Assembly (NCBI RefSeq): GCF_011089885.1 | Contig: NZ_JAANBD010000025.1 | Location: forward strand, 310,001-374,000 | Direction: 5' to 3' | From: Thioalkalivibrio sp. XN279 | GTDB lineage: Bacteria; Pseudomonadota; Gammaproteobacteria; Steroidobacterales; XN24 | DNA: 64,000 nucleotides | In this document: one piece after another, positions 6,498 to 61,991 of the stretch | Layout of the letters: each line of letters opens with the position of its first letter | Position numbering within the stretch: position 1 is the stretch's first letter | Made by a program: the position numbers and the translations under genes | The notes under the pieces: generated by a model | The model's database searches: none | Seen by the model: only the letters and a program-made list of their open reading frames with translations | Told to the model about the DNA's origin: nothing

Positions 6498-6501
<4 letters not shown>

Positions 6502-42038: not shown

Positions 42039-44723
42039 CTACAGCAAAATCCGATAGTCACGGTTGTCCGCGTCGCTCGACTTGATAATCCGGTACTCCA
42101 TTCCGCTGGCCACGGCGATCTGGTGGGCAAAGTCCTTCTTGGCCTGGACCACCGCTGCATCGATTTGGTTGTCGGCTTTGACCTCGACGATGACGTACTT
42201 CTCTGTACCATCAACCTCTTGGCGCAAGAAAACAAAATCAGGGTAGTAGCTGCGCACCGTCCGCGAGTCGGGATCGATGTACTGGATGAAGAAGTCGGAC
42301 TGGCCATGGGTTAGCATCCCAGTGAAATAAATTTTCTTCACGCGCTGCTCACGGAGGAGATCCCAGAACAGCTGGTTCTCCGACCCGGAATCGAAGCAGT
42401 ATGTATCTAAGTGGAAGCTCTTTGCGCGCTCCTCGTCCTTGATCACGCGGTCACCTCGGCGGACAATCTTGTCTCGGGCAGCGGTGACCTCGTAGTAGCC
42501 GTTAGACGGCACCTTAATCAATTCGACCTCATGCTCTTCGGTCTGCTGCGTCTCGTCCAGATCATAAAGCTGTCGGAACAGGCGAGGGATTATCTCGTCG
42601 TACAGCAACTCGTTGAACTCATTAGTCATCGCTACTAGTTCGTCCGTTCCTTCCTTGGTCGAGTCGAGCAGCTTCTCAAGCTCCAATGGGCTCCGATTCA
42701 GGTAGCGAGACACCTCCGCGACGAGGGTCATCCTGGAAAAGGTCCGCTTTTCACGAACAGCAGTCAGATCGAATGTTTGGCTAGCCGACGCGCGGGGGGC
42801 ATCGGCGGCGACGAAGCCCTCCCACTGGGTTTCGATGAGCCGGTACTTCTCCACCAGTGCATTCCACACGTCACTGTCGGACCGGTCGAGCCCAAGTGCC
42901 TGACCTGGTTTAAGCTTCTTTTCGCGCATGACGTACTGCTTCCGGACGCGCACCAGCTTGATCTTGACTGACGGCTCGACCACGCGCACTTCGACGCGCT
43001 CCTTATCCTTGCCGGTCTTCTGTAACTCGTCCGCGCTTATACGGAAGTTCTGCTCCAGCTCGTCGTTGAGCGTGTTGAGGTTGGCTTCCGAGAGGAAGAT
43101 GTGGCCGGTGTGCTGGGCCTGGCCAATGGCGCGCAGGCAACGCATCGTGGCCTGCAGGACAAACACCTTGGACTTCGGCTCGCGAAACAGGCCCACGCCG
43201 AATAGCGAACGGCAGTTCCAACCCTCACGCCCCTTGTTGACCAGCAGGATGAACTGCTTTTCAGAGCCTTCAGTGTCGAGCCGATTGAACTCGCGGATGT
43301 CGTCGTTGGTGGTGAGCTTATCGTCGCCAACGTTGACTAGGATGCGCGAGCTCGAGATGCCGTGCTTGAGCAGCGCGCGCTCCACGGCCGGTTTCAGCTC
43401 GCTGGTCAGCTCGTCGATGGTGGCGGCGAAGAACGCCATCTTCGGGGAAAGCCCCTCCGGCCGCAGCCCATCTGTTTCGTTTAGGAAACTCTCGATGGCG
43501 ATGTCGACAAACTCGTCGGTCCGGGTGTTGGCGTAGCCGTGCAACGTCACCTTCTTGAGGTAGGCCTTGTCGATGGCCTCTTTCAGGCCGTAGGCGTAGA
43601 CCACCTCGGGCAGCACCTCGCGCCCCACGTAGGGCGTGCCGGTGTAGTTGTAGCAGGCCACCACGCGCGTGCCCGCCGCACTCAGGCTGGCGGCGAGGAT
43701 GTCGATGGTCGTGCGCAGGCTGGTGTCGGTTTCCTTCGCGCCCAAGCCCATGTCCTTGGCCAATGCCTTGCCGAAGGCGTGGTGGGCCTCGTCCACGTAG
43801 ATGCCGAGCTGTTCAAGCCGGCGCAGCTTCTCAAAGCGCTGGTTGGTGGTCAGCTCGCCTTCTTCTTCCGGCTGGTCAAAATTGTAGAGGTCGGCGGCGT
43901 CGGCATAAACGCCGGTGGCCGCGAGGCTTTCGCCAGTCGCGCCGAACAGCTTGTCGACGGGGGATTTTTCCTTGTGCTGGCGCTTGAGGATGATCTTCTG
44001 CGTGTTGGAGACGATGATGTTGAAGCGCGAACGATCCAGCGTATCCAGGGAGGTGCCTGCCTCTTCTAAATAGTGGAAACGCAGGTGGGTGGTCAGGAAG
44101 TTGACGTACTCCGGCGGCACCACACGCGTCAGGTCGAACGACTCTATTTCCTTGAGCGAATGCAGCACCGTCTTGTCCGGTGCGAAGACCAGCGCGTTGT
44201 GGCAGTAGCGCGCATCCTTGCCAAACTTGTTGCCCAGCAGGAACTCATAGAAAATGCAGGTCGCCATGAGGATGGTTTTGCCAGTACCCATCGTCAGCGC
44301 GAAGATGTAGTTAGGGTAGACGCGCGAGTTTTTGCGCATCGCCGCGAATACGGCCTTGTATTGATCCTGGGTGATCTTGTCGAACAGGCCCACTTGCCCT
44401 GCACTGCCCGACACCACGCCGCCTTCCGCGCGATCTGCAAAGCGGCCTTGTTTTGCAAACCACTGCTCGAAGATCTCCTCGACCCTGGCGTTGCCGAGGA
44501 ACTCCTTAAGAAAGACATAAATTTCCAGCGCCTCGAACTGCGGCTGGCGCAGGAAGGCCTTGGGGTTACGCTCCGGATTGTTGAAATCAAGGAACTTGCG
44601 CGTCAGCTCCTTGTAGTGCGTGCGGATCGTGCCCCGGTTGGCTTGGTAGAACTGCCAGAGGAACTGGAAGAAGGCGAAGTCGAGCGACGCGCTGACCGCC
44701 TTGGGCTTGCGCTTAGTCGTCAT
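42039..44723 (-). CDS. Type III restriction enzyme, Res subunit
   Basis: Restriction subunit (894 aa) of a type III restriction-modification system: an SF2 translocase/helicase that, with Mod, cleaves DNA carrying inversely oriented unmodified sites. Visible are Walker A TMGTGKT (residues 144-150), DEAH (311-314), LVNKGREGWNCRSLFGVGL and the QATMRCLRAIGQ motif. A C-terminal PD-(D/E)xK-type nuclease site is YYPDFVF followed by VIVEVKAD near residue 850. Its start overlaps the mod stop by 11 nt. No lesion was seen. Confidence 0.93.
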   Translation of the reverse strand: MTTKRKPKAVSASLDFAFFQFLWQFYQANRGTIRTHYKELTRKFLDFNNPERNPKAFLRQPQFEALEIYVFLKEFLGNARVEEIFEQWFAKQGRFADRAEGGVVSGSAGQVGLFDKITQDQYKAVFAAMRKNSRVYPNYIFALTMGTGKTILMATCIFYEFLLGNKFGKDARYCHNALVFAPDKTVLHSLKEIESFDLTRVVPPEYVNFLTTHLRFHYLEEAGTSLDTLDRSRFNIIVSNTQKIILKRQHKEKSPVDKLFGATGESLAATGVYADAADLYNFDQPEEEGELTTNQRFEKLRRLEQLGIYVDEAHHAFGKALAKDMGLGAKETDTSLRTTIDILAASLSAAGTRVVACYNYTGTPYVGREVLPEVVYAYGLKEAIDKAYLKKVTLHGYANTRTDEFVDIAIESFLNETDGLRPEGLSPKMAFFAATIDELTSELKPAVERALLKHGISSSRILVNVGDDKLTTNDDIREFNRLDTEGSEKQFILLVNKGREGWNCRSLFGVGLFREPKSKVFVLQATMRCLRAIGQAQHTGHIFLSEANLNTLNDELEQNFRISADELQKTGKDKERVEVRVVEPSVKIKLVRVRKQYVMREKKLKPGQALGLDRSDSDVWNALVEKYRLIETQWEGFVAADAPRASASQTFDLTAVREKRTFSRMTLVAEVSRYLNRSPLELEKLLDSTKEGTDELVAMTNEFNELLYDEIIPRLFRQLYDLDETQQTEEHEVELIKVPSNGYYEVTAARDKIVRRGDRVIKDEERAKSFHLDTYCFDSGSENQLFWDLLREQRVKKIYFTGMLTHGQSDFFIQYIDPDSRTVRSYYPDFVFLRQEVDGTEKYVIVEVKADNQIDAAVVQAKKDFAHQIAVASGMEYRIIKSSDADNRDYRILL

Positions 44724-46710
44724 GGCTCACGCTCCCTTCCCACGACTCGGACAGCAGGTCGGTGATCTTCACGCGGATGGTGCCCGCATCCTGCGGCACC
44801 GTGTACGCGCCCTTGACCAGAGCGTTCTTGCCAGGGATGTCCACCACCGCCGGCTGCAGCACTGCGCCGTCGTAGTTCCAATCGATCAGCACCGCCTCGA
44901 CCAGCTCTTTCCAGTCCTCGACCGATTCCTTCTGTAGCGAGAGTTTCTGCAGCAGGTTCATGGGGTAGAACTTCTCGATGCGCAGTTCGCCCTTCTTGAT
45001 GGCCACCATGGCCTCCGAGTCGCGCTTGAACTCCAGATCGGCTTTGTCGCGCAGGATGTCCACCACCTCTACGTCGATCTTGAATGGCTTCGCAGCCAGT
45101 TCCAGTTGCGCGGCCAAGTCAGGTTCGTGGCCCATGCACACGAGGGTGATTTTCTCGACCGAGCGGTTTGGATTCTCGTTGTGGCGGTGCTGCCACGCCT
45201 TTTGGTCGAAGTTGTGGATCAGTTCGTTCAAATCGGCGCGTGTCGCGATGCGGTTTACGGGCATGATCTTAACCATGCGCCCGTCCTTCTCGCCGTCGAA
45301 CACGGTGCTGAACTCTAGTTTCTGCACCTCCAATGCCTCGATCAGCAGTTCCTTGGCCTGAACAGGATTGTGAAAGATGTCGTAGTGGTTGACGTTGTAT
45401 AGCTCGAAGCCGGTAAATTGTTTGGTCGCGCCACCAAGGGCTTTCTGGCGCAGGCCATCGGCAACGCCGATCAGGCGCTTGGTGGTCGTCTGGATTGCAC
45501 CAAGGTTGATATCAGCGCCGATGAAACGGCGACCGAGCTTCATGGCTACGGCTTGAGTTGTCCCGGAGCCCATAAAGCAATCGAGAACCGTTGCGCCAAC
45601 TGCCGAAGACGACTTGATGATCCGCGCCAACAGCTCCTCAGGCTTCTGAGTCGGGTAATCCTCGGACTCTGTAGAGTTGCTGGAAAGAGCTACAAAGTCT
45701 GTCCAGATCGATTGCAACTCCACACCGGGCATGTCATCCGAATACTGGATGGCGTTCGGGCGGCCCTGCCCATCCTTCGCCCACCGAATGCGGCCCTTCG
45801 CCTCAAGTTCGTCGAGCGCTTTCAGCGGGCTCTTTTTGGCATCATCGGACAAAAGGTGTTCGAGAAAACTCGGCACTGCCCAGTGCCTTCCTTTTCCAAT
45901 CGAACCGGGGTTCAGTCCTTTCCAAGTCGCTCCAGACTCACCGCTACGCAAACCTGGTGCTGTGATTGGACTCTCGCGGTAAAGTCGTCCCGAGTCATCG
46001 GGCTTGAAGTTTGACTCCAGGTACTCCTTGCTGTATGGCGTGTACTGCTGATCCCAAGAGAACGTGGGCGTCTTTGTGTAGAAGAAGATGGTGTCATGAA
46101 TGTGGTTGTAAGCGCCACTTCCCGATCGTGCAGTAGTCCGCCTCCACACAATTTCGTTCTGAAAGTTTGACGCACCGAATACCTCATCTAACGCGATTTT
46201 GAGGTAGTGCGCTCTTCGATAGTCGCAGTGGACGTAGATTGATCCCGTTCCCGAAAGCAGTTCACGCAACAGGATAAACCGCTCATACATGAACTGCAGA
46301 TACTCGTCGTTAGTCCAGATGTCTCCGTACTGCTTGTCCTCAAATGAGACGTAGTCAGATGCGGTACTTTTTCCTCGTACCTTGATGGTTCTGCGGTAGT
46401 CAGCGCCGGAGTCAAACGGCGGGTCGATATAGACGAGATCAACTTGTCCCCGAAACTCCTTCAGCAGGTGACTCATCACCTGCAGATTGTCGCCCCAGAA
46501 AATCTTGTTGCGCCAGCCATCCGCCTCCTCGCCGTGGACTTCCTTCAACTGCGCCGGGTAGTACTGCGTCGAGGTGAACGGACGCTTGCCGCGCCAGTTG
46601 AGCATCGGGTAGCCCTTGATAGGTTCAAACTCGTACTTCTCGACGTTGGTGGTGCCACCGTCGGACGTGGACAGTTGCAGGGTTTCCTGCGCGGATGTGT
46701 TCTTGCTCAT
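44713..46710 (-). CDS. Type III DNA methyltransferase, Mod subunit
   Basis: Adenine-N6 methyltransferase (665 aa) that also supplies sequence recognition for the type III enzyme. The catalytic motif DPPF (residues 96-99) precedes the SAM motif DCFMGSGTT (377-385), the order of beta-class enzymes such as EcoP15I Mod. The region between them holds the target-recognition domain. The ATG at 46710 (MSKNTSAQ) shares one base with the upstream helicase stop (TGATG), and the 3' end overlaps res, so all are coupled. Confidence 0.92.
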   Translation of the reverse strand: MSKNTSAQETLQLSTSDGGTTNVEKYEFEPIKGYPMLNWRGKRPFTSTQYYPAQLKEVHGEEADGWRNKIFWGDNLQVMSHLLKEFRGQVDLVYIDPPFDSGADYRRTIKVRGKSTASDYVSFEDKQYGDIWTNDEYLQFMYERFILLRELLSGTGSIYVHCDYRRAHYLKIALDEVFGASNFQNEIVWRRTTARSGSGAYNHIHDTIFFYTKTPTFSWDQQYTPYSKEYLESNFKPDDSGRLYRESPITAPGLRSGESGATWKGLNPGSIGKGRHWAVPSFLEHLLSDDAKKSPLKALDELEAKGRIRWAKDGQGRPNAIQYSDDMPGVELQSIWTDFVALSSNSTESEDYPTQKPEELLARIIKSSSAVGATVLDCFMGSGTTQAVAMKLGRRFIGADINLGAIQTTTKRLIGVADGLRQKALGGATKQFTGFELYNVNHYDIFHNPVQAKELLIEALEVQKLEFSTVFDGEKDGRMVKIMPVNRIATRADLNELIHNFDQKAWQHRHNENPNRSVEKITLVCMGHEPDLAAQLELAAKPFKIDVEVVDILRDKADLEFKRDSEAMVAIKKGELRIEKFYPMNLLQKLSLQKESVEDWKELVEAVLIDWNYDGAVLQPAVVDIPGKNALVKGAYTVPQDAGTIRVKITDLLSESWEGSVSHDD

Positions 46711-49625
46711 CAGTCGTTTTTCCTGAACTTCCAATTCTTGTTGTCGCAGTAGGCACGCATGTCGCAGCTCTGGCACAGCTTGGCCGGGCGTGCTTTGATC
46801 TGGTAGTCATGCCGCTCGATACGCGTGACGATATCGTCGAAGCGCGCGATGGTCTTGCCAATGGCGCGGTCGTCCTTGCTGAAGGAGACGTAGGGGTTGC
46901 CGCCGTCCTCGCCAGTGTAGTAAAGATGCATCCGGCTGACCTTTTGGCCGGTGCGCTCTTCCACCAAATGAGCGTACACTTCCAGCTGGCTCTGGTACTG
47001 ACGCAGGCGATCCCGATCCTTCTCCATATCGGGCTTCTTCTCCGACTTAAAGTCGATGATCTCGACCGTGTCATGCTCGCCACGAATCAGGTCGACGCTG
47101 CCCTTGAGGATATACTGGTCCTTGATCAGCGAAATCTCGACCTCGGCTTCCTTGATGCGACCCCAGTTGCCGTTCTCGCGCTCGTAGTAGCGCAACACGT
47201 GCAGCAGCGCCGCCTGCTGCGAGGATGGCGCAAGGTAGACGCGCTCCTTCTTGGAGATCATCGCGTAGTTTGCCGAGAACCAGCCTTTGATGGCGTCGAA
47301 ATTGATGGTGCCTTCCTCGCCGCGCAGCACGGTCTTGTGGATGTCCTCGATGGTCTGGTGCACCAGCGTGCCGAAGAGCATCGGGCTCTCACGGATGGGC
47401 GCGAACTCCAGATCCTTGAAGAAGCGATACTGCTCGGCGCAGTTCTCGAACACGTTGATGTGCGAAGTGAAAGAGTACTCGCGCTTGAGGTTGATCTGCT
47501 TGACGGCCTCGAAGGTCAGGGCTGAAAGATCGATGTCACGCCAACTGGGGAGCTCGTAAAACAGGCGCTCGAAATACTTCGACGGCGACTTGCCCCGGCC
47601 TTGCTTTTCCTGCGCCGCCAGCACGAGCAGGTTCTGCGCACGCGAAAAGGCCGTGTAGAACAACCGCCAGAAGTCGAAATTCTTGATGTGGTCGAGCGGC
47701 TCGAAGCGTCCCTTGGACAGGTGGCCACCATCCTCCAGGAGGACATCCAGCGTGCTGTACTGTTTGCGCGGCACCGCCTCCAGCGAGCCGCACACGACCA
47801 CCGGGAACTCCAGCCCCTTGGACTGGTGAATGGTCAGGAACGAGACGCAACCCTTGGGCGCGTATTCGGCTTCGTCCTCGTACTCGCCGATGCCGCCGTC
47901 CCGCAGGAAGCGCAGGAACTGGTTGAACAGATCACGCAGATTTTTTTCCAGCCACTCGGGGTTGAGCACGCTGACAAAGTGCAGGTACTCGAACTTGGTG
48001 AGCAATTTGGAGAAGGTCCCAAGGTTGCGCGCGGCGCGCCCTTTGTCCACGCCTTGCACAGCCTCCTCAGTGAGGAAGTGCGAGAACAGCGGGAACTGCA
48101 GCAGTTGGTAGAACAGTCCGGAGAAGGAGTAGTCGGTGTTCTGCGTGAGCACGGCGTGGCGCTTGGCCAGCGGACGTGCCCAGTCCAACAGCGGTTTGTT
48201 TTCCGGTTTGCGCAGCTCGTCGATGAAGGGCTTGAAGCACTGGTGGTCGTAAAAACCCCAAATGGGCAGCGTGACGCCTTCGGCCCATGCCCGCACCTTG
48301 GGGAACTGCGGGAACAGAAAGATCAGCGCGCCGATCATCAGGCGGATCTCCTCGCGCTCGAAAAACATGTTCGAGCGGGGGGAGAACACGGGCACGCCCT
48401 CGGCTTCAAGGAAACGTGCGAGCGCCACCACCTTGTCGTTCTTCACCGAGCGGAACAGGAAGGCCGCCTGATTCCAGTCCGAGAGCTTGCCGGATGCCTT
48501 CAGGCCGTTGAGGAAGGCCAGCACCTCGGCGTGCCAGTTGGTGCTGTCCCCGTTGTCGTTGCTGGCGGCCAGCCGCACCGCCGTGGGCATGTCGAGAAAG
48601 TCGTCCTCGCGCGGGACGATCTGCTTAGCGAAGCGGAAGACGCGTGTGCCGTCGTCCCAGGTCTGTTCCCGCATCCACTCGTTGTAGAAGCGGATGATGT
48701 CCGGGTGTGAGCGGTAGTTGACGGTCAGTTTGACCTGCTTGCATTGGCCGTCGTCGAACAGCGCGGGGAACTCCAGAATGTTGCGGATAGTGGCCCCGCG
48801 AAAGCGGTACAAGCCCTGGTCATCGTCTCCCACCACGCACAGATTGCGGCGTTCTCCGGCGAGCAGTAGGAGGATGCGTTCCTGGATGGTGTTGGTGTCC
48901 TGGTACTCGTCCACCATCAGGTAGTTGAGCTTGTCGCGCAGCTGCGCCAGCACCTCGGGTCGCTTCTCCAGTAGTTGCAGCGCCTCGTACTGGATGCCGG
49001 AGAAGTCCAGAGAGTTGTGCTCGTGCAGCAATTCCTGGTATTTGGCAAAGCAGGCGGCCAAGGCACGAATTTCCGGCTCTGGAGCCGCCGCCAACGTGGC
49101 GACGTCAAGCGCCTCCTCGCTGACCTTGTTGACCCACTTGAGCAGGTTCTCCGACTGTGCCCATCGGCCCGTCTTGTCATCGCACATGACGAGCTGGGCG
49201 TCGGGCAGATCGCGGAAGTCCTTGATGTGCTGGTAGATGAAGTACTGCTGGTCGAACTGATCGAACAGCGTGAAGCTGCGCTTGAGACGGGTGAACTCGC
49301 GGAAGTCCTGCAGCAGCCGCAGGCAGATCGAGTGGAACGTGCCAAGGTACATCTCGTTCAGGTTGAACTTGATGCCCAGATCGCTTAGCCGATTGGAGAT
49401 GCGGGTCGTCAGCTCACGCGCGGCCTTGTCGGTGAAGGTGACGACGAAGAGCGACTCTGGCGCGACAACCTTGTGCGTGATCAGGTAGACGACCCGCTCG
49501 ACGAGCATGAAGGTCTTGCCGGAGCCGGGCCCCGCAATGATGAGCACCGGGCCATCGGTAGCGAGGATGGCCTCAAGCTGTTGTGGGTTAGCCTTTGACT
49601 GGAGGGCGGCGGCGCTGCTGGTCAT
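46710..49625 (-). CDS. UvrD-like helicase with C-terminal RecB-type (PD-(D/E)xK, 4-Cys) nuclease
   Basis: A 971-aa SF1A helicase-nuclease fusion. Helicase motifs in order: AGPGSGKT (31-38), LMVDEYQDTN near 237, VGDDDQGLYRFRGA, and SFLTIHQSKGLEFPVVV near 600. The C-terminal domain has the nuclease motif EIIDFKSEKKPD near 860 and a terminal Cys cluster, CQSCDMRAYC, as in AddB/Cas4-like Fe-S nucleases. It overlaps the HTH gene upstream (ATGA) and mod downstream, an unusual fourth member of a type III operon. Confidence 0.9.
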   Translation of the reverse strand: MTSSAAALQSKANPQQLEAILATDGPVLIIAGPGSGKTFMLVERVVYLITHKVVAPESLFVVTFTDKAARELTTRISNRLSDLGIKFNLNEMYLGTFHSICLRLLQDFREFTRLKRSFTLFDQFDQQYFIYQHIKDFRDLPDAQLVMCDDKTGRWAQSENLLKWVNKVSEEALDVATLAAAPEPEIRALAACFAKYQELLHEHNSLDFSGIQYEALQLLEKRPEVLAQLRDKLNYLMVDEYQDTNTIQERILLLLAGERRNLCVVGDDDQGLYRFRGATIRNILEFPALFDDGQCKQVKLTVNYRSHPDIIRFYNEWMREQTWDDGTRVFRFAKQIVPREDDFLDMPTAVRLAASNDNGDSTNWHAEVLAFLNGLKASGKLSDWNQAAFLFRSVKNDKVVALARFLEAEGVPVFSPRSNMFFEREEIRLMIGALIFLFPQFPKVRAWAEGVTLPIWGFYDHQCFKPFIDELRKPENKPLLDWARPLAKRHAVLTQNTDYSFSGLFYQLLQFPLFSHFLTEEAVQGVDKGRAARNLGTFSKLLTKFEYLHFVSVLNPEWLEKNLRDLFNQFLRFLRDGGIGEYEDEAEYAPKGCVSFLTIHQSKGLEFPVVVCGSLEAVPRKQYSTLDVLLEDGGHLSKGRFEPLDHIKNFDFWRLFYTAFSRAQNLLVLAAQEKQGRGKSPSKYFERLFYELPSWRDIDLSALTFEAVKQINLKREYSFTSHINVFENCAEQYRFFKDLEFAPIRESPMLFGTLVHQTIEDIHKTVLRGEEGTINFDAIKGWFSANYAMISKKERVYLAPSSQQAALLHVLRYYERENGNWGRIKEAEVEISLIKDQYILKGSVDLIRGEHDTVEIIDFKSEKKPDMEKDRDRLRQYQSQLEVYAHLVEERTGQKVSRMHLYYTGEDGGNPYVSFSKDDRAIGKTIARFDDIVTRIERHDYQIKARPAKLCQSCDMRAYCDNKNWKFRKND

Positions 49626-49834
49626 TCCGCCCGCTCGTCGTCATCCACCATCGCCCTGCCGATGCGGCTGGCGATCCACTTGTCCAGGTCGCCGCGTCGG
49701 AAGCGCCAGGTGCCGCCCAGCTTGAATGCGGGAATCTTTCCGCTCGATGCGAGGCGGTAGACCGTGCGCTTGCCTGCCTTCAGGTAGGCGGCAACCTCGT
49801 CAATCGTGAGGATCTCATCCGGCTGGTCGCTCAT
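49622..49834 (-). CDS. Small excisionase/MerR-type HTH protein (HTH_17)
   Basis: A 70-aa DNA-binding protein with the classic pattern LTIDEVAAYLKAGKRTVYRLASSGKIPAFKLGGTWRFRRGDLDKWI, a winged helix of the helix_turn_helix_17/excisionase family. The ATG at 49834 (MSDQPDEIL) is preferred over one four codons upstream because GGGAAAG lies 6 nt before it. It is the first gene of the type III operon and may be its regulator, perhaps via the repeats upstream, or an excisionase. Confidence 0.82.
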   Translation of the reverse strand: MSDQPDEILTIDEVAAYLKAGKRTVYRLASSGKIPAFKLGGTWRFRRGDLDKWIASRIGRAMVDDDERAE

Positions 49835-49893
49835 CGGCTTTCCCATGTCATGTGTGCTGCGCTTGGTTCCTGCTATATGCTGTCATGATATTC

Positions 49894-49920
49894 CAAACTT
49901 ATGCAGACTTGAGCAAACTT
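49894..49920. promoter_or_regulatory. Three 10-bp-phased heptamer repeats in the divergent promoter region
   Basis: CAAACTT, CAGACTT and CAAACTT occur at 49894, 49904 and 49914, exactly one helical turn apart, between the HTH_17/type III operon (minus) and the GHKL ATPase gene (plus). Weak candidate promoters lie on both sides (TTGGTT with TGATAT at 17 nt on plus; TTGCTC with GAATAT at 17 nt on minus). The array would be bound from one face of the helix. It is a likely operator. Confidence 0.5.
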
Positions 49921-49957
49921 GGCATCAAGATTGGTGCCTGACCCAGAGGGAGTGCCC

Positions 49958-52900
49958 GTGGCGTCGAACTACGAAACAATTTGCGAGGAGAACCGGGAAA
50001 GCTACGGCACAAAAGGCGCTCAGAAGTCTGGGAAGCTGGCCGCTGGGCTGTACGACGACCGCACGCACTTCATCTTCGAGTTGCTGCAAAACGCCGAGGA
50101 TGCCCTCGGTCGGCGTGGCGAGTGGAACGGATCACGCAAGGTTACGTTCACACTAGCCCCGACCCGCCTGACGCTCTCGCATTTCGGTAAGCCGTTTGAC
50201 GAGGCAGACGTCCGAAGCATCTGCGATATCGCCGAAAGCACCAAGAACGAGTCCTCCATCGGCCGCTTCGGCCTCGGCTTTAAGTCCGTCTACACCGTTA
50301 CTGATCTTCCGGAGATTCACTCTGGCGATGAGGACTTCTCGATTGAGAACTATGTCTTTCCGAAGCGGTTGACACGTTCGGTGCGCGCGGCGGACGAGAC
50401 GCAGATCATCCTTCCCCTTAAGCCGGAGGACGCGAGCGCAGCGCAGGACATCACGGCGGGGTTCCGCCAGTTGGGCCCTAGCGCACTGCTGTTCCTGCGC
50501 CACATTGACGAAATCAACTGGAGCGTCGAGGGGGGCGCGTCGGGGTTCTATCTGCGCAACACTCCGGAATCGCTCGGTCCCAATGTCCAGCGCATCACGT
50601 TGATCGGCAACGAGGATGATCGGGAGGAAGTGGATCAGAACTGGCTGGTGTTCCACCGCGACATCTTTTCTGCCGAGGGGCACAAGGTAGGACGCGGGGA
50701 AATTGCCTTCTCGCTGGTTGCGGTAAAGGACACCCCTGGTCGCTGGGCAGTGCAGCCGCTGGCCAAGTCGGCGTTGGTGGTTTTCTTCCCGACGGTGGTT
50801 GAGAGCCACCTGGGCTTTCTCGTTCAGGGGCCGTATCGCACGACGCCAAGCCGCGACAACATCCCGCCCGGTGAGCCGTGGAACCTGCATCTGGTCAAGG
50901 AGACCTCCAGCCTCCTGGTGGAAGCGATGCGCTGGATGCGGGACAACGCATTGCTGGATATCGCGGCGCTGCGCTGCCTGCCGCTTGACCGTGGGAAGTT
51001 CCCAAAGGGGTCGCGGTTTGCGCCGATGTTTGACGCCGTCCGGCAGGCGCTTCAGGACGAGGAACTGCTTCCAACCTTCGATGGCGGGCATGTCACCGCC
51101 CGGCAGGCCAAGCTGGCGCGAACGCAAGAATTGCGCGAGCTGTTCAGCCCGGGACAGGTTGCGGCGCTGTTCGGTTCGGAGGCTGCCGCCTGGTTGTCAG
51201 GCGACATCACCCAGGACAAAGCACCCGAGATTCGCCAGTACCTGATGCGCGAACTCGACATCGACGAGATCACGCCGACAAAACTGGTATCGAGCCTTAC
51301 GAAGGCGTTCCTTGAGGCGCAATCCGACGAGTGGGTATTGCGGCTGTACGAGTTCCTGAGCGGCCAGGAGAGGGCACTGCGTCGCCATCTGGACACTATT
51401 CCGCTCATCCGCCTCGATGACGGGACGCACGTCGTCGCTCGCGAGAACGGAAAAGCCAAAGCCTTCTTGCCCGGCACCATTGCCACCAGTTTCCCGACGA
51501 TGCGCCGCGCGGTGTGTGCGACACCTGAGGTTCGCTTGTTCCTTATATCGCTGGGCATCAGCGAACCTGATCCGGTGGACGATGTTATCTGGAACCTCCT
51601 GCCGAAGTATCAGAAGCAAGAGGTGGATGTGGGCGACGATGCCTACGCCTCCGATATAGAGCGCATCCGTGCAGCTTTCAACACCGACTCAGCCGCGCAG
51701 AAGGAAAAGCTCCGGTCCGCCCTGCGCGATACCAACTTTGTTATGGTGGTCGACACCGGTGACGATGAAGCCTATGTCGCTAAGCCTAGCGAGGCTTACA
51801 TCGCGACCGACCGCCTGCAGCAGCTTTTCGCAGGCGTGCCCGACATCTTCATCGTCGACAACGAGTACGACTGCCTGCGCGGTGAAGAGATTCGTGACTT
51901 GCTGGTGTCGTGTGGGGCAAGCCGTTACCTCATTCCTGAAGCAGCACGATCGGGACTTGGGAATTCCGAGAAGGAGCAGATTCGCAGAGAAACAGGCCTT
52001 GAACGTGCGAGCTGGGAAAACCAGCCAGAGGACTTCACCCTTCGCGGACTGACAGAGCTGCTGGAGTTTTTGCCAAAACTGCAACCCAAAGATGCCGCAG
52101 CCCGAGCAAAGGTGCTCTGGGAGGCCTTGGCCGATCTGGAGGCGCGCGGCACTGCTGCCTTCTACGGATCCTACAAGTGGGGCTATTTCCACGAGGCAAA
52201 GACTGCTCGATTCGATGCCTCCTTCGTCCGGACGCTCAACCCGGTCGCCTGGGTGCCGAATGCCGACGGCGAACTTGTGCCTCCTGGGCTCGTCGTGTTC
52301 GATACCCTCGGCTGGAAGCCCAACCCGTTCCTGCAGACCAAGATCACCTTCAAACCACCGATCATCGATCAGCTTGCCAAGGAGGCAGGCATCGACCCGG
52401 CCATTCTCGATCTGCTACGAAGAGACCCCGCTATTGTAGCCGAGCTTACGTCCCGACTGAGCGCGAATCCGACGCCAGAGACCGACGAGCCGCTCGATGG
52501 CGACGTGTACGACGGTGCAAAAGATCTTTACGGCGATGATATGCCGGATATCCCGCCGGGCACCCCTGATCCGGACGATGGTGAGGGCGTGGGTACGGGT
52601 GCAGGAGGTGGTGGCCAAGGGCGCACTGGTGCGGGGGCTTCGCGCGGGGTTAGCCAGGGCGATGGGAGTGGCCACGGTAGCCGCGGAGACAAAGGCGGTG
52701 GCAAAGGCGGCGGGCAAGGAAAGAGGACACCCGGCCATGCCGGGGGGCGGCTGTTCATTTCCTACGTCGGCACGCACCCCGATGATGATGGCCCCGACCC
52801 CGATGGCCTCGATCAGGCAGAACGGATGGAGATCGAGGGCAATGCAATCGATCTGATCATTGGTCTTGAGCCAGGACTGCACCGCACGCCGGAAGGCAAC

Positions 52901-53185: not shown

Positions 53186-53489
53186 TGTACCAGTCGGCCA
53201 AATTATCCAATTCACGCCCTAAAGGCCAAGGCGTCGCTATCTGGCTCAGGCTCGGCAAATGGACGCGGTTCAGTTCCGCGTTCCACCTGACACCGCTGGA
53301 GTTCAATAAGTCCTTAACCGCAACCCATCCAGGCGATCTCCTCGAGAACGGTCCGACAATCGGCAGGCAGATCATATCTTCTTCTGAGATATAGGTTTCG
53401 ACACCGTTGGGATGACCGGCACGTTTGATGATCCCGAAACACAGGTTACCTGTACATTGATTTCTGTACGCCGTCCTCGCTAAGCCCAT
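53169..53489 (-). CDS. Hypothetical protein, 106 aa, coupled to the Dna2-like gene
   Basis: No family recognised. The frame starts with ATG at 53489 inside the 3' end of the Dna2-like gene (10-nt overlap), a typical translational-coupling arrangement. The product contains ISEEDMICLPIVGPFSRRSPGWVAVKDLL and a C-terminal PWPLGRELDNLADWYIN segment, with ordinary amino-acid composition and no membrane segment. Its 3' end overlaps the GHKL gene tail-to-tail by 17 nt. The overlap and composition favour a real gene. Confidence 0.6.
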   Translation of the reverse strand: MGLARTAYRNQCTGNLCFGIIKRAGHPNGVETYISEEDMICLPIVGPFSRRSPGWVAVKDLLNSSGVRWNAELNRVHLPSLSQIATPWPLGRELDNLADWYINRPE

Positions 53490-56400
53490 CTGAACTCACC
53501 TGGGACATCGACGCGCCCGTTGCTGCCATGGTATCCAAGCGACATGGGTCTAACGTTGCCGCAGAAGGATTCAGCGAAGTACTTCAGCAGGCGCGATTCG
53601 CGCAAAACGGCGATGTCATGCGCAAGGTGACCGATCACCTCCTCCGACACCAGAACGACGAACTTCGCACGTGCACGAGATGCGATCACGTTGAAGCGAT
53701 TGAGGCTCATCAAGAACTCGTCCTCCTCGGCGATCTGGTCCGGGTCGCCGAGCGAGTAGGACGCAATAATGATGTCGCGTTGCTGTCCCTGAAAGCGCTC
53801 GACGGTGTCGACCGACTCGCGGATCGCTTCTGCGAGCGCACCCGTCGCGCCGAAAACCTGCAAGAGCCGCGTAACGATCAGCGCTTGCTGAGCACGGTGC
53901 GGTGTGACGACACCAACTGCCTTTCGGAAGAAATCAATCGCCGAGTAAGCCGTCGTCGTGGGCGGGATAGGCTGGCCAGTGCCCGCGTCGTTCTCGTTGC
54001 GGAGCTGATCCGCCATTTGGCCGTGTAGCAACAAAAGCATGGACGCGACGGCGTCCGCCTCGAAATCGTTCCGCTGGCTGCTCCTGCCGTCCTCATAGAC
54101 GAAGCACACTGCGGGCCGAGATGGGTTGAGAATGTCCGCCCACTCGTGCGTCCAGAACAGGCGCGCATCCCAGGTTGCAGGCTGTGCAGTAGGGGTGGGC
54201 GAAAGGAAGTTCAGCTCTAGCGCGGGTGAGTGACTCGTCAGCGTCGCTTGGTATCCGGACTGGCGAGCCAGACCCACAATGCAGTCGTTCGAGCGGTAAT
54301 TGACACTTAAAGGGCTCTCGGGAATCTGGTGTAGCTCCTTCCAGAAGCCGTAGATGGAACCGACGAAATCCTCGAGTCCCTTGGGTGCCTCGGCCTGCTG
54401 GATCGGCGAGAGCTGCAGCGGGTCGCCCGCGAGGACAACGCTGCCGCCGTTGGCGATACTAGCGATGGCCAAGATAGAGTGGGCCACGTCCATCTGCGAC
54501 GCTTCGTCGATGAGAATGAGGTCAAAGAATTCGCTGGTCGCTCTCCCGTTCTCGGTTGTCAGGAGGTTGTGCACTTGCTCCGACGTCGCACCGACAACGA
54601 CGACTCCATTCGGCTGCTGAAGCCGCGCGCGCAGCGCTCGCAGCACAAGCGAAGGGACGCCTTTGTTCAGTTCAAGGTCGATCGTCGGCGCGATGTTGCC
54701 CGGGTTCGCTTGGTAACGGGAGCGAACACGGAAAACATCGCACGCGCCCGGCGCGAGCGCTGCGAGATCGCGAGCGATCTCGAGTAGGACGTTGTCGATC
54801 GCCGTGTAGGTGAACGCCGAGACCAACACACGGAAAGGCCGGTTGCTTTCGAGTGCCTCGAGGACCGCGCCCACCGCGATCGCACGCACCGTACGGCTCT
54901 TGCCGGTCCCCGGCGGCCCCCAGACCAGGCGCGCCCGATGCGTGAGGGCATCCTGCCATGCCTGCCACTGCCCGTTGTTCAGGGTCAGCCCGTGCGTCGT
55001 GAGCTGCGCCCGGACGTTCCCAAGGCTCCGCGAGACCACTGATGTCGCTAGCGTGGCGGGGCTCCACAGGAACTCGGCGGCCGGGACCTGTTTACGCGAA
55101 CGACGAGCGCGCGCCCCTGCCTGCCCCGTAGCCCTCATCACAAGCGGTTTGCTAGAAGCGATGGTCGGGTTGCCGATGGCTTTCAGCGTCACGTCGAGCT
55201 TCTTGGTGAAGAAGTCGTTGTGGACCGGGTCGAGCACGACATTCTGCTCGAGGTTGACCAAGCCCGAGGCTTGGAACTCGTCGAGAGCCGTGGGCCAGTT
55301 CAAAGCGGAGGCGTCGAGGGCGATGAGGCCGTTGTTCCGGTCCAAGCCCGCGATGGTCACGCACGTCAGATCTTCAACGAGCGCGTGCCAGTAACGTTTG
55401 CCGAGACGCTGGTTCACTGTCGCGTCGAAGGCCGTGTTGCGTACGACGCCCGCGATCTTGCGGTCAAGGAGGCCCGGCGCGTTCTCGGGCACGAGCGCGA
55501 ACGAAAAGTCTCCGACCTTTGCCTTCACGTCGTGGGAGTCTGGCGAGAGCAGGTACACGCGTCGACCGACCTGCGGCACGAGCCCGAGTCTCGCGAGAGC
55601 GTCAGTTTCCGGCTGGCCGACGAGACGCTGGACCAGCCGGGCACTTCGGAACCGGGCTGCGCGTTCGTGCGCGGGCATCGCCCGCACATGCTGTACATCG
55701 AGTTCCTCGAGCGCCTTGCTCAGCTTCGTGAAGGCGAACCAGAGCTGGCCATCGGAGCTCGTACTCGGCTGACGAGACGGGGGGCCAATCTGGATCACCG
55801 GCGCGCTCTGCGTCAGGCGAGGCTTCAGGTCGGTCTCTAGCCGCTGTGCAACGGTCTCAAGGGCGGACAGTCGCTTTTTCACAGTCTCCACGTAGGTCTG
55901 CATCTGCTGTTGCCAATGCCGCGGCGTCGTGATTCGGGACCAGATCTCGTGTGCGCGCTCAGACGGAATCTGGTCGCTTAGCGACGTCGCGAAGAGTGGA
56001 TGGACGTTGAATGTCGCGACGCTCGCCGGCAGCGACGGCTGGTGGTACAGGCGAGCGACCTCGAAGAGGCTGTAGTAGTGGGGAATGGGCGCTGCCAGCA
56101 TCGAACGGATCACGTCCCGAACGATCGTGATCGGAGACCGGCGCACTATGGAATCGGGGTTCTCCAGCAGCTCCTCGGGCGGGAATAGCCAGGCTAGGTA
56201 GCTGAGGTTTTGGTTCGCGAGGATTGCCTGCAGATGACGCCCGATTACTCTTGTGAGGTGGTCGTACTGCAGAGAGTCCCATATATAGACCTGCAAGCTC
56301 GTCTGGTAGTCGGGGCGACGCTGAGGCGTGAGCCCCGCGAGGAGCGGGTTCTGCAGCGTCCGCGCGTCCTGCGTCTGACACCACTGGATGATGTCGTGGA

Positions 56401-57859
56401 TCTCCTGCAGGAAGGCGAGAAGCTCGTGCTCCTCGGAGGCGAGGTCGCGGTCGATGACGATGCGCGCGTTCGACCGCCAGGCTCTGTTCTGCCGCGGCGA
56501 AGTCAGCGGCGACTGAAACGCGCGCGGTTCGTGCCAGAATGCCTTCAAGCCGAACGCAACGGTGATGGCGCTTCCGATATCGAAGTCGACCGAGAGAAAG
56601 ATGCGAAGGTCCGCCCATTTCGGCATGGACGCAGATGAGCCCGTCTGAGCAGGGATCGTGACGGTGCCCGACTGAAGCGACGACGCACGGCCCGCGACGA
56701 CCGTGCGCGTCGCACGCAAGGTCTGGTGCGTATCGAACACGGGGTCCGTGCCCAAGCATTGCGCGAGCGATTTGACGTGCCCAACGCCGGCCTGGTTCAG
56801 GCTGAGGCGCGCGCCCTGCGACACGAATGCGACGCGGCTCAGGTGGTCCTGGGATAGGGCGAGCGGGAGGCAGTGGTTGTCGTGAGGGGCCACCTTGGGA
56901 TCGTGTTGACTCGGAGGACGATCCTCCCCGAGGTACTCACAGAACGAGCAGCGGTTGTCGACGTGGAATTCAAGCGCACTCCAGTGGCTGGCGAGCGCCC
57001 TCGGCAGGTCGGATTGGAAGAAGCGTCGGACGCGGAATGCGAAGACCTCGAATGGCGAGGTCTCGAGGTCCTCCTGCATCGCAGCCCAGAGCTGGGCGGT
57101 TGACGGCGTAACGCCCTGCCGCTGGGCCTGACGGCTCGCTTGGACGAGCTTCGAGGCCTCGTGGGTGCCGGGCCACACGGCGGCGTCGGGGACGACGACA
57201 AACTGCCCGGCCAGCCCCTGGTCATGGAGCCATCCGGCTAGTGCCATGCTGTAAAAGGCGACCTCGGCAAAGTACGCTGGCGATGGATCGGCGCTCAGCT
57301 TGATATCGATGATGCGAAGCTGCCGCCGGGCGTCCCCCGAGGGCAGAGACGAAATGCTCCCGTCCGCCGAAATGAACGAGGGGAACTTGGCAGCGGGCAG
57401 AACCTCGATGATGTCGGGGCGCAGCTCGCTGTACTGAAGCGAGTATTGCGTGGCGTGACCGACGACCCCTAGCGCCTGCTGGAACGTTTTCCCGATGCTG
57501 AGCGTCGACTCGACTATGAACTTCGTCGGCGTCGTCTTCGAGAGGTGCGCTGCGAGCTGGATCTGCTTATACCGGACCTGACCGCTCTGAAGCGTGTAGG
57601 CTGATCCGACGATCGATTGGGCCCCGAACGTCTGCGTGAGATCGTGGAGCTTCTCGGCCTGCCACTCGTCGCCTGCCCTCTGCACCTGCGGCAGCCCTGG
57701 CCGAGGCGACTGCGGGTACGGCATCTGGAGCTGTGCGCGCTTCTGCGCGTAGTCGTTGTTGTCGGGATAGAGGTTGAACGCCAACTGCCGAAGACAGTTC
57801 GTCCTTATGAACTGGCTCAGCGAGTGCTTCCCAACAACGGGTTCGGTTCGGTTCGGCAT
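53480..57859 (-). CDS. Dna2-like protein: Fe-S RecB-type nuclease fused to SF1B (UPF1-like) helicase
   Basis: A 1459-aa protein. The N-terminal third is a Cas4/Dna2-like nuclease: Cys22, nuclease motif RIIDIKLS near 183, helix EVAFYSMAL, then Cys about 305, 308 and 328 (CSFC...NHC), the one-plus-three Cys layout of Dna2 Fe-S nucleases. The C-terminal third is an SF1B helicase: GPPGTGKS near 981, LILIDEASQMD near 1116, AGDPLQLSPIQ, VDTVERFQGQQRD and NRFNVIASRARA. The methylase gene ends 12 nt upstream. Probably a DNA-degrading effector. Confidence 0.88.
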   Translation of the reverse strand: MPNRTEPVVGKHSLSQFIRTNCLRQLAFNLYPDNNDYAQKRAQLQMPYPQSPRPGLPQVQRAGDEWQAEKLHDLTQTFGAQSIVGSAYTLQSGQVRYKQIQLAAHLSKTTPTKFIVESTLSIGKTFQQALGVVGHATQYSLQYSELRPDIIEVLPAAKFPSFISADGSISSLPSGDARRQLRIIDIKLSADPSPAYFAEVAFYSMALAGWLHDQGLAGQFVVVPDAAVWPGTHEASKLVQASRQAQRQGVTPSTAQLWAAMQEDLETSPFEVFAFRVRRFFQSDLPRALASHWSALEFHVDNRCSFCEYLGEDRPPSQHDPKVAPHDNHCLPLALSQDHLSRVAFVSQGARLSLNQAGVGHVKSLAQCLGTDPVFDTHQTLRATRTVVAGRASSLQSGTVTIPAQTGSSASMPKWADLRIFLSVDFDIGSAITVAFGLKAFWHEPRAFQSPLTSPRQNRAWRSNARIVIDRDLASEEHELLAFLQEIHDIIQWCQTQDARTLQNPLLAGLTPQRRPDYQTSLQVYIWDSLQYDHLTRVIGRHLQAILANQNLSYLAWLFPPEELLENPDSIVRRSPITIVRDVIRSMLAAPIPHYYSLFEVARLYHQPSLPASVATFNVHPLFATSLSDQIPSERAHEIWSRITTPRHWQQQMQTYVETVKKRLSALETVAQRLETDLKPRLTQSAPVIQIGPPSRQPSTSSDGQLWFAFTKLSKALEELDVQHVRAMPAHERAARFRSARLVQRLVGQPETDALARLGLVPQVGRRVYLLSPDSHDVKAKVGDFSFALVPENAPGLLDRKIAGVVRNTAFDATVNQRLGKRYWHALVEDLTCVTIAGLDRNNGLIALDASALNWPTALDEFQASGLVNLEQNVVLDPVHNDFFTKKLDVTLKAIGNPTIASSKPLVMRATGQAGARARRSRKQVPAAEFLWSPATLATSVVSRSLGNVRAQLTTHGLTLNNGQWQAWQDALTHRARLVWGPPGTGKSRTVRAIAVGAVLEALESNRPFRVLVSAFTYTAIDNVLLEIARDLAALAPGACDVFRVRSRYQANPGNIAPTIDLELNKGVPSLVLRALRARLQQPNGVVVVGATSEQVHNLLTTENGRATSEFFDLILIDEASQMDVAHSILAIASIANGGSVVLAGDPLQLSPIQQAEAPKGLEDFVGSIYGFWKELHQIPESPLSVNYRSNDCIVGLARQSGYQATLTSHSPALELNFLSPTPTAQPATWDARLFWTHEWADILNPSRPAVCFVYEDGRSSQRNDFEADAVASMLLLLHGQMADQLRNENDAGTGQPIPPTTTAYSAIDFFRKAVGVVTPHRAQQALIVTRLLQVFGATGALAEAIRESVDTVERFQGQQRDIIIASYSLGDPDQIAEEDEFLMSLNRFNVIASRARAKFVVLVSEEVIGHLAHDIAVLRESRLLKYFAESFCGNVRPMSLGYHGSNGRVDVPGEFRWA

Positions 57860-57871
57860 TTCGTCTCCGAT

Positions 57872-59950
57872 TTACTGTCCGGCAGCAACTTCGAGGGCAT
57901 TCCGAAGGCGAATGCCTTGGGCGTCGTCAGCGTGGCCGTAGAGGCCCAGACTTGCGCCAACGAGCGACGCGCGGAACAAGTTGGCGAAGTCGGCGTCGTT
58001 GAACGGAAGCCTATCCTGGCGGCGGAACCGATCGCGCCAGCGACGCGCGTTGGCGCGCGCGGCGGCGATCTGTTCCTTGCTTAGGTTCTCGATCGGAGTC
58101 GTGGTGGGGCGCTTGCGGAACACGAGGACCGCGTCCCAGAGGCTCGTACCGTCGTGCGTGTGCAGCCCCATACCGGCCTCGCCGGGCATCGGGAGTACCT
58201 GCACGGGCTTCAGCCCGCCAAGCGCGAGCGCCTTCGCCATCGCGAGCCAACCCTCGGTCGTGCTGTGCCGGAACGTGAACGCGAGGAGCCCGTGCGGCTT
58301 GAGGACGCGACGGACTTCGCTGAAGGCCTCGCCAAGGTTCGCGGCGAACTCCTCGACGCTCTCCTCATTGTTTCGGCGTGCACTGAGCGCCCGCTTCACG
58401 AGGATGCGGCGCTTCGCAGCCTCGGGCACGAGCCCCATGTGCTCGAGCCACGGCTGGAAGAAGTCCGACAACTCCGAGTACGTGATGTTGTCGAAGTACG
58501 GCGGGTCGGTAAGCACCATGTCGACGGAGTTCGACTCGACGAAGGTGAGCTCGCGCGCGTTACCGCTGAACACTCTGGGTGCAGTCGTCGGCGCCACGGC
58601 CTCGACTTCGCGGAAACCGCCCCAGCGCGCGGGCTCCTTCGGCGCCTTGGCGAACGCCGACGCACGCAACACTTGACGGATCGCGTTCGGGAAGGTGCCG
58701 CGGCCCGTGCCCTCGAGCCACGGGTTCAACTCGACGGGGCGAGGCACGTGCCGGAACGCCCTGATGCTGAAGAGCGGCGTGAGACGTCGCCACCCAGCCG
58801 CGTAGGACGTGAGCATGCAGTTCGTCGTGAGATGGTTGCTGAACGCGAGCCCGAAGGCGCGGCGCTGGTCTTCGGAGAGCTTCTTGATCTCACGCGCAAG
58901 GCGACCGAGGTGGAGGAGCTGGCGATCGTTAAAGAGCTGGGACCACCGCCGGTAGCCGTAGTCAGTGAGGCGCGTGTCAGACCGGTACTTGTCCTCAATG
59001 CCGTGGAGAGGCAGGAACTCTGGGTCGGCCTCGATCTCCTGTCGGAGCGCCTTGGTGGCTCGCGCGACAGCCGCTTGATGAGCGGCGGCGGCCTTCAGGA
59101 AGACACGCTCTTTCATCGGCACGGAACGGCCCGTTGTGCGGGGGGTCGCCTCGATCGCGAACAAGCGCCACGTCGGCGGCACCTCCGTCTGACGCCCCAG
59201 TTTGATGAGCGGTGTCCGCTTGTCGCAGTGCGGGCAGGTGTACGTGCCGCTCTGCACGGGCGCTGAGTTGAGCACCGTCTTCGTCTCGCACGACGTGCAG
59301 GAGAAGCTCTTATGGATCGCCTTCAGCGAGTGGGGTTCGTGACACTTCCTGCAGAACGCCCACCGCTTCTGGCCAGCCTCCTCGGCGAGGATGTAGTTCG
59401 GATGAGCCTCGCCGACCTTCTTGCACGACGGGCACGCGACGATTTGGACCCAGAAGTAGTGGACAGCGGTTAGCTGCGTGCCGTCATGGCCCTTCACGGC
59501 ATACAGCGGTGCGAGCTTCTTGCCGACGCGCTCCTGGAGTGCGCACAGCGTCGGAAGCAGGTCCTCGAGAGTCGCGGCGGTAAGCTCGGCGGTCGTGACC
59601 GCGCAGGCGATGGGGTCGACGTCGACACCAATCGCCGATGCCCCGAGGCGTGCGGCCTCGACGACCGAAGTTCCGCCGCCGACGAACGGGTCGAGGACGG
59701 TGACACCCTGAAGGTTCCCTGTCTCGTAGTACGCCTTCCAAAAGTCGGCCGTCGGCTCTGAGATCGCGCCGATGAGCACGGCGCGGAACGAGCACCCGAG
59801 GCGCCTTGCGAACCACTTGTGGATCTGGTAGATCGGGCGCGGGCGGCGTCCTTCTCGAGCGGCGAATGCCGCGAGAGACGAGAACGGAAGAGCCCCAGCC
59901 TCCAAGAGCGTGCGTTTAGGGAGGCGAGAGTGAAGCGCTACGTTGGCCAC
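57872..59950 (-). CDS. Zn-ribbon adenine-specific DNA methylase, DUF1156/COG1743-like
   Basis: A 692-aa SAM-dependent DNA methyltransferase. The N-terminus resembles DUF1156 (RPRPIYQIHKWFARRLGCSFRAVLIG). SAM motif DPFVGGGTS (near residue 90) precedes catalytic LTDPPYFDN (near 480). Between them are four C-x-x-C pairs (CPSC, CRKC, CTSC, CPHC; residues about 170-245), two probable zinc ribbons. GTG at 59950 follows GGGA; a TTG four codons upstream is an alternative. First gene of an operon with the Dna2-like nuclease-helicase, so it likely marks self DNA. Confidence 0.87.
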   Translation of the reverse strand: MANVALHSRLPKRTLLEAGALPFSSLAAFAAREGRRPRPIYQIHKWFARRLGCSFRAVLIGAISEPTADFWKAYYETGNLQGVTVLDPFVGGGTSVVEAARLGASAIGVDVDPIACAVTTAELTAATLEDLLPTLCALQERVGKKLAPLYAVKGHDGTQLTAVHYFWVQIVACPSCKKVGEAHPNYILAEEAGQKRWAFCRKCHEPHSLKAIHKSFSCTSCETKTVLNSAPVQSGTYTCPHCDKRTPLIKLGRQTEVPPTWRLFAIEATPRTTGRSVPMKERVFLKAAAAHQAAVARATKALRQEIEADPEFLPLHGIEDKYRSDTRLTDYGYRRWSQLFNDRQLLHLGRLAREIKKLSEDQRRAFGLAFSNHLTTNCMLTSYAAGWRRLTPLFSIRAFRHVPRPVELNPWLEGTGRGTFPNAIRQVLRASAFAKAPKEPARWGGFREVEAVAPTTAPRVFSGNARELTFVESNSVDMVLTDPPYFDNITYSELSDFFQPWLEHMGLVPEAAKRRILVKRALSARRNNEESVEEFAANLGEAFSEVRRVLKPHGLLAFTFRHSTTEGWLAMAKALALGGLKPVQVLPMPGEAGMGLHTHDGTSLWDAVLVFRKRPTTTPIENLSKEQIAAARANARRWRDRFRRQDRLPFNDADFANLFRASLVGASLGLYGHADDAQGIRLRNALEVAAGQ

Positions 59951-60388
59951 GAGATGTCCCAAGAATCATTAAGAGATCTGCTGTCATGGAAGCTTAACTG
60001 CCCAACGCTCCGAATGAGCCGCGTTTGACGGCGACCGACCGGAGCGGCGGGAGGGAGTAATCAAGCGTCGGTCTCCATGCAAATTTTATATTTCAGGTAA
60101 TGGGGTGAAAGTCCAGTTTAAACTTCCGAAATTCCTTCTCGAACGTGGCAGAGTCCAATCCCGCGAGCTCCCGAAAGTCACCAGATCTATGAACTGCCCA
60201 GACGGCGCCCCCGTCACACTCCCTGTTTCCGCTGCTTCTCGCAACTTCGGCATCTACTATGTGCACCCATTTGCGTGCCCAGCGTTCACCAACCCAAGCT
60301 ACCTCGGACGTGCTCGCCAAACCGGGGCACTCCACGCACCTTGTCCCGGTGAGCGCGAAACCTGGGGCACGTCAATCGAACACTGGCG
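59951..60388. other. Gene-poor gap with a possible remnant ORF (60093-60335, minus)
   Basis: This stretch upstream of the methylase has lower GC. A minus-strand GTG-initiated frame (60093-60335) could encode 80 aa. Read 13 codons further back it includes a CVEC pair before the first stop, with WVGERWARKWVHIVDAE and an amphipathic C-terminus KEFRKFKLDF. No start with a good ribosome site precedes the CVEC, so it may be a small gene or the 3' remnant of a larger one. Methylase promoter must also lie here. Confidence 0.3.
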
Positions 60389-61870: not shown

Positions 61871-61918
61871 CCGACTACCCTTCGTGGAGCTCTCTAACAT
61901 TACCAACCGGCCCAAACT

Positions 61919-61971: not shown

Positions 61972-61991
61972 TACAGCATGGGGACCCACTT

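Follow-up and report, generated by a model that had tools for sequence, protein, structure and literature searches.

A 10-bp-phased repeat array as probable operator of a MAD1-like HTH_17 protein at the head of a defence locus

Upstream of a small HTH_17 gene of Thioalkalivibrio sp. XN279, three CA(A/G)ACTT repeats follow each other at exact 10-bp spacing, which raises the question of which protein they serve and how they act on the surrounding genes. The window, i.e. the whole stretch of DNA analysed here, comprises 64,000 nucleotides (contig NZ_JAANBD010000025.1, positions 310,001 to 374,000). The repeats and their spacing, as described in the original prediction, are borne out by exact CARACTT matches on the plus strand at 49894-49900, 49904-49910 and 49914-49920 (CAAACTT, CAGACTT and CAAACTT, respectively). 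In the orientation of the HTH gene, they become CAAGTTTG, CAAGTCTG and TAAGTTTG, running from 49921 down to 49894 (Table 1). The motif CARACTT occurs 13 times in the whole window, with 6.98 copies expected, and the array is the sole 10-bp-spaced triple of 7-mers there (each 7-mer with at most one mismatch from the first and at least three different letters). When the 129-bp region was dinucleotide-shuffled, an equally spaced triple (8-25 bp) arose in 7 of 2000 cases and one at 10 or 11 bp in 1 of 2000; the 27-bp pattern, with up to three mismatches allowed, has a single match in the genome of 3,129,098 bases.

Table 1. Coordinates of genes and sequence elements in the window (identity: mean pairwise identity in 24 loci)
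Feature	Position	Strand	Basis
HTH_17/MAD1-like regulator gene	49622..49846	-	Pfam HTH_17 9.7e-20; NCBIfam antiphage_MADS1 82.9 bits, cut-off 80
GHKL/sacsin-like gene, 1075 aa	49958..53185	+	Pfam SACS, NOV_C; PADLOC TmtA 6e-66
UvrD-like helicase with PD-(D/E)XK domain, first large gene of the HTH operon	46710..49625	-	relatives in 60 loci
N6/N4 DNA methylase	44713..46776	-	Pfam N6_N4_Mtase 4.9e-48
ResIII-like protein with TnsA-like nuclease domain	42039..44723	-	domain matches
Ribosome-binding-like GAGGGAG of the GHKL gene	49946..49952	+	read from sequence
Putative operator unit 1, CAAGTTTG	49914..49921	-	at least 7/8 matches in 24/24 loci; 49913-49922 identity 0.87
Putative operator unit 2, CAAGTCTG	49904..49911	-	at least 7/8 in 18/24 loci, at least 5/8 in 24/24; 49903-49912 identity 0.72
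Putative operator unit 3, TAAGTTTG	49894..49901	-	at least 7/8 in 1/24 loci (window alone); 49893-49902 identity 0.51
Possible GHKL promoter, TTGGTT 49863-49868, 15 bp, CATGAT 49884-49889	49863..49889	+	loose matrix score 5.5, weak
Further conserved block, of ATATTATGACA type when read along the HTH strand, probable promoter sequence	49881..49892		49883-49892 identity 0.69

The HTH gene encodes 74 amino acids from the ATG at 49846, or 70 from the conserved ATG at 49834, which is the start common to most HTH relatives. The divergent GHKL gene matches PADLOC TmtA, a name that we take to stand for Tiamat. It most likely starts at the GTG at 49958 rather than at the TTG at 49919, because the GTG is kept in all 24 aligned loci, window included, and is preceded by the GAGGGAG listed in Table 1. 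For these comparisons, 60 loci were fetched by relatives of the helicase; 24 loci, the window among them, were alignable between the GHKL and HTH starts. The GHKL gene is divergent to the HTH gene in many of the 60 loci, and the core of helicase, methylase and Res genes also occurs without either. The idea that the repeats separate two distinct defence modules was not borne out: GHKL, HTH and the helicase-methylase-Res operon recur jointly and therefore look like a single recurring five-gene locus, with GHKL and HTH as an accessory pair to the core.

Downstream of the Res gene, a TIR-TPR protein is encoded at 38088-40145 (minus strand). A second candidate defence operon adjoins the GHKL gene (53480-63723, minus strand) and encodes a 1459-aa AAA_11/AAA_12 protein (PLuB_AAA, 7.1e-26), a 696-aa methylase-like protein (DUF1156_antiphage, 1.8e-31, below the cut-off) and two proteins of 508 and 341 aa without Pfam matches. 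A 30% relative of the 1459-aa protein lies near the same genes in the locus L063. This locus is a decayed copy, in which the helicase gene is cut after approximately 228 residues and directly followed by a 70-residue Res match (6001-6901), with HTH, operator and GHKL still kept.

The comparison of homologous loci supported the original prediction with respect to units 1 and 2, which are kept together with the 10-bp period, but not with respect to an equal weight of the three copies, given that unit 3 is degenerate in the relatives. Mean pairwise identity across the 24 loci declines from 0.87 in the stretch of unit 1 to 0.72 and 0.51 in those of units 2 and 3; for comparison, third codon positions in the HTH gene, evaluated in 23 loci, give 0.52, and the stretch towards GHKL, as far as the ribosome-binding region, gives 0.46-0.53. 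When the 24 sequences were matched to themselves and evaluated against 100 dinucleotide shuffles, a peak appeared at shift 10 (z 15.6), while no other shift from 5 to 25 exceeded 4.6. Unit 3 resembles the repeat at five or more of its eight positions in 15 of the 24 loci versus approximately 5% of all 8-mers in these regions, and for this reason reads as a weak third site, of which the window harbours the best copy. The label "iteron" given to the repeats implies plasmid replication and is abandoned here, since no sign of such a function was seen. Plasmid iterons were ruled out as the window proteins scanned include no replication gene and the repeats track the HTH gene.

The best operator matches are local. 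The two-unit operator was sought in 28 genomes that harbour these loci, and 14 of the 15 matches with at most one mismatch were situated at the locus, their places being calculated from contig positions. With up to three mismatches, the pattern was no commoner than its reversed control (119 versus 112). Ten off-locus sites chosen from these matches, one with a single mismatch and the rest with two or three, had no HTH relative nearby, so that no wider regulon is indicated; eight of them fall within ORFs that are 100 aa or longer.

The occurrence of the repeats follows the HTH gene rather than GHKL. With thresholds of E <1e-6 for the HTH protein and a score of at least 15 for the operator, 23 of 31 GHKL loci possess both, none has the HTH gene without the operator, one has the operator without a scoring HTH gene and seven have neither (Fisher p 3e-6, relatedness ignored). 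The same categories comprise 23, 2, 1 and 33 loci when all 59 loci used are counted, namely the window and 58 of the 60 fetched (L032 and L062, which lack a helicase start, were left out). The loci are related to one another, and on a GHKL tree of 30 rows the joint HTH/operator state amounts to four changes, at least three of which are forced by well supported branches. The locus L020 was scored among those with HTH, yet the match to its gene spans 34 residues and suggests a truncation; its first unit is still kept, and a strict count with L020 as HTH-negative changes the GHKL table to 22, 0, 2 and 7. The operator is also kept in L023 (Enterobacter hormaechei DSM 14563), where the HTH gene is apparently frameshifted. 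Among the GHKL loci with neither a scoring HTH gene nor a scoring operator, L007 and L034 retain one unit; L014 has a decayed HTH gene and decayed repeats; L025, L027 and L028 have neither HTH nor operator, a match of score 15.4 in L027 being located elsewhere (around 5217) inside the GHKL coding stretch. In L041, GHKL is 3.5 kb away from the helicase, and neither HTH nor operator is present beside it. The two HTH loci without a matching operator are L011, which has a different 10-bp repeat, and L057, in which no 10-bp repeat was seen. L021 and L030, both lacking the HTH gene, show an AT-rich stretch approximately 110-150 bp upstream of the helicase, in which the 10-bp phasing is partial and a GACAAAYATG block occurs; no HTH-like ORF was recognised there.

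These data bear on the explanation that the conserved sequence is a promoter or the site of another host regulator, with the HTH gene being incidental. The adjoining block at 49883-49892 is conserved as well and may be a promoter, and with a loose sigma-70 matrix the -10 element on the GHKL side falls within 49881-49892 in some loci. However, where GHKL is kept but no HTH gene is recognisable, the operator is missing in seven of eight loci, and HTH relatives that belong to other operons likewise show a 10-bp period upstream (see below). We consider this explanation very improbable. As for the promoters themselves, the region 49750-50060 yielded nothing in a strict scan for sigma-70 promoters and terminators, and the loose matrix revealed no single register across the 24 loci.

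Which type of binding is to be expected from the HTH protein? A PDB sequence search up to E 1 returned BldC (E 0.0083 and 0.016) and RdfS (0.2) alone. The AlphaFold model has a pLDDT of 82.8, and BldC-DNA complexes fill the top seven rows of the Foldseek result, with a weak best E of 4.1e-3. With VIA, Z was 7.7 for both 6ama_A (53 residues, rmsd 2.0) and 6amk_A (51 residues, rmsd 1.4), and BldC is among the top three rows, tied with another small protein at Z 8.0; a Z below 8 can reflect a mere common arrangement, and the lack of a family in VIA-align counts neither way. As predicted by the model, the protein of 70-74 aa is a BldC-like wHTH without dimerisation or effector domain. It resembles BldC of Streptomyces (6AMA, 6AMK), which has approximately 70 residues, consists of the wHTH only and uses direct repeats about one turn apart; the repeats of the window, as putative targets, also lie one helical turn apart. 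BldC protomers sit head to tail on direct repeats with one turn between them, and poor outer repeats are tolerated (PMC5859096), a further likeness to the putative operator described here. The residue equivalent to BldC Arg30, which is described there as reading a pyrimidine-guanine step (PMC5859096), is R in 48 of 62 HTH proteins, K in 5 and another residue in 4, with 5 unmatched by the simple pattern used. In contrast to BldC, the protein scores only 30.7 bits with NCBIfam HTH_BldC (cut-off 77), the units of the window are of the CAAGTTTG type instead of AATTXXXX(C), and the putative regulator is local to its operon, whereas BldC is global; some MADS1-type relatives have AATTTTCCC. On the reading favoured below, the HTH protein and its operator would represent a variation on BldC-type regulation.

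The score for the MAD1 equivalog (NCBIfam NF047737) surpasses its cut-off (82.9 versus 80 bits), but the operon in the window differs from that of MAD1 in the methylation-associated defence system. Of the eight window proteins scanned, the other seven gave no match to any MADS family at E values up to 0.001, and the operon as a whole was therefore rejected as a MADS system.

The protein also passes the excisionase-family profile TIGR01764 (64.5 versus 28.8 bits), and its predicted winged-helix fold is similar to that of the excisionases Xis, RdfS and TorI, of which two, RdfS and lambda Xis, assemble head to tail into oligomers or filaments. The repeats might accordingly be a recombination or excision site with the HTH protein as an excisionase-like directionality factor, and some plasmid relatives are indeed found near Tn7-like TnsE genes. 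Xis, RdfS and TorI go with integrases, however, and a Pfam scan of the 16 window ORFs between 35343 and 63723 found none; moreover, HTH gene and repeats head the same operon in loci of many taxa. This is the reading to which we give the least credence, and we regard it as highly improbable.

A closer functional parallel is RptR of E. coli, likewise a small regulator that heads a defence operon behind three direct repeats. The RptR paper describes an all-helical homodimer acting on 9-bp units with a palindromic TAGCTA core, and a repressor on three direct repeats at its own promoter that heads type I RM operons (PMC12255303). The HTH protein differs from RptR, as characterised there, in its fold and in its 10-bp-spaced CAAGTTTG-type units. 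None of the four published RptR core variants is present in 49820-49975, and no RptR chain was among the PDB matches up to E 1, with the reservation that the PDB copy may not contain 9R2Z. Membership in the RptR family was ruled out on the basis of the different fold, as given in its paper, and the absence of a core variant in this region.

RptR nevertheless serves as a precedent for another mode of binding. Given the partial dyad symmetry of the unit (CAA..TTG), one dimer per unit is possible, and the HTH protein could bind each unit as an independent symmetric dimer without forming a chain. This would agree with CAAGTTTG being palindromic at six of eight positions, as read from the sequence, and with the precedent of RptR, whose three direct repeats of 9 bp each contain a palindromic core (PMC12255303). 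On the other hand, both fold and sequence of the HTH protein match head-to-tail binders, i.e. BldC and Xis-type proteins, and the AATTTTC/ATATTCTC sites of some MADS1-type relatives are not palindromic. Independent dimers are therefore rated as improbable, though less so than an excision site or an incidental HTH gene.

Taken together, we favour the reading, which we hold to be probable though far from certain, that the repeats are the operator of the adjacent HTH_17 protein. One protomer would bind to each CAAGTTTG-type unit, and since the units are 10 bp apart, the protomers would be placed on one helix face with head-to-tail contact, as in BldC. Assembly may nucleate on the strong units 1 and 2 and spread over the weaker unit 3, so that the oligomer would cover the presumed promoter region of its own operon (HTH, helicase, methylase and Res) and that of the divergent GHKL gene. 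Autorepression is the likely consequence and would hold the whole locus at a low, steady level of expression, while a locus entering a cell without the regulator might undergo a burst of expression. The original prediction, which suggested phased sites of a cooperative regulator and the neighbouring HTH_17 protein as the binder, appears to be upheld in this respect: the repeats are conserved and are missing from seven of the eight GHKL loci in which no HTH gene is recognisable, a 10-bp period is found upstream of HTH relatives heading other operons, and the closest structures are those of BldC on direct repeats.

Two observations speak for repression: the repeats overlap with candidate promoter elements, and the published parallel, RptR, is a case of repression. 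The HTH protein could alternatively bind the repeats and activate its own operon, or act in opposite ways on the two sides, as C proteins of RM systems can. The overlap of the repeats with the -35 element of the best HTH-side promoter candidate in several loci would suit an activator as well, but the nearest functional parallel with three direct repeats, RptR, is a repressor (PMC12255303). We regard activation as unlikely, yet as the most serious of the alternatives to an autorepressing operator.

It was next asked whether the arrangement is confined to this locus. Among 398 sampled Pseudomonadota genomes, 24 gave a match to the MAD1 model at E 1e-12, including that of the window, and 12 scored above the cut-off. 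At 19 of 20 MAD1-matching places that were extended, the next large ORF lies on the same strand. Proteins scanned beside the HTH relatives match models for type I RM, type IIG, DrmD-like, HKD-Snf2, Mza and other systems, and some match none. No HTH relative was found in phage records at E 1e-5. Plasmid records with an HTH relative number 1275, of which 1082 are from Klebsiella. In seven of ten plasmid regions opened, the relative heads a heat-resistance island; in one it heads a DUF499/SIR2/DUF1156 operon, in another the first large protein of the operon is DrmD-like, and the tenth lies beside Tn7-like genes without an annotated HTH gene. HTH relatives are located downstream of Tn7-like TnsE, as the next annotated gene in L111, after two small genes in L112 and unannotated in L118. 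The orf1 of the heat-resistance island is an HTH relative with approximately 56-68% identity over the matched part, and the seven heat-resistance loci opened show a 10-bp self-match upstream (11-13 of 18 positions); unlike the HTH gene of the window, orf1 heads a heat-resistance operon and is preceded by a different repeat sequence.

For 13 representatives of HTH clusters, four of which are window-type loci (W, L013, L020 and L023), the 10-bp self-match in the upstream 150 bp reached z 6.9, the next best shift 2.4. Self-matches of at least 12 of 18 were present in 4 of the 13 as compared with 15 of 489 control regions, which derive from the same loci and may contain a few operators. For the nine representatives heading other operons, a z of 5.2 stands alone at 10 bp (next 2.3; 3 of 9 with at least 12 matches), and it rises to 7.3 when L073, L076 and L111, three loci first noticed by eye, are added. 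Five distant HTH_17 clusters had no 10-bp peak upstream. L074 and L082 (8 of 18 matches) showed no 10-bp signal, and the 10-bp rule is therefore not universal.

The sequence of the units varies. Of 38 other upstream regions of HTH genes, six reached p ≤0.01 with the operator matrix, among them two (L013 and L071) of the same locus type. Units are of the type ATTGGCAAC in L011 and L076 and AAATCTTGGC in L111; heat-resistance loci, for example L112, have the AAAGTCTTGC type, and some members of MADS1 type have AATTTTCCC/ATATTCTC. A consensus of the last type was detected within five mismatches in 7 of 17 upstream regions versus 0 of 489 controls; as it was read from L064, one of the seven, the zero mismatches of that locus are circular. 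In the heat-resistance plasmid L112, the phased repeats span -72 to -44, and the promoter of the heat-resistance island is reported in a review to lie 63 bp upstream of orf1 (PMC8290217). We tentatively propose, with slightly less than even confidence, that MAD1-like HTH_17 proteins constitute a portable cassette in Pseudomonadota, composed of a small gene and a 10-bp-phased operator of variable sequence and constant period. It would head unrelated defence operons and a stress island, coat the promoter head to tail and set expression by the number and quality of the units.

For the published regulators of defence operons BrxR/CapW, CapK/CapS and RptR, this combination of fold and operator is not described in the parts of the open-access literature available, and among the matches listed from that literature no paper on the HTH-operator arrangement was found. 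The aspect most likely to be novel is the 10-bp phasing upstream of a MAD1-like HTH family at the heads of defence operons. How defence islands are silenced and switched on is poorly known. If the operator type is general, a single reporter design could test type I RM, type IIG, DrmD-like, Mza-like and other operons together, and the operator could help to spot uncharacterised defence operons. If the proposed reading is true, BldC-style DNA binding would extend from development to phage defence and to the heat-resistance island that many Klebsiella plasmids carry.
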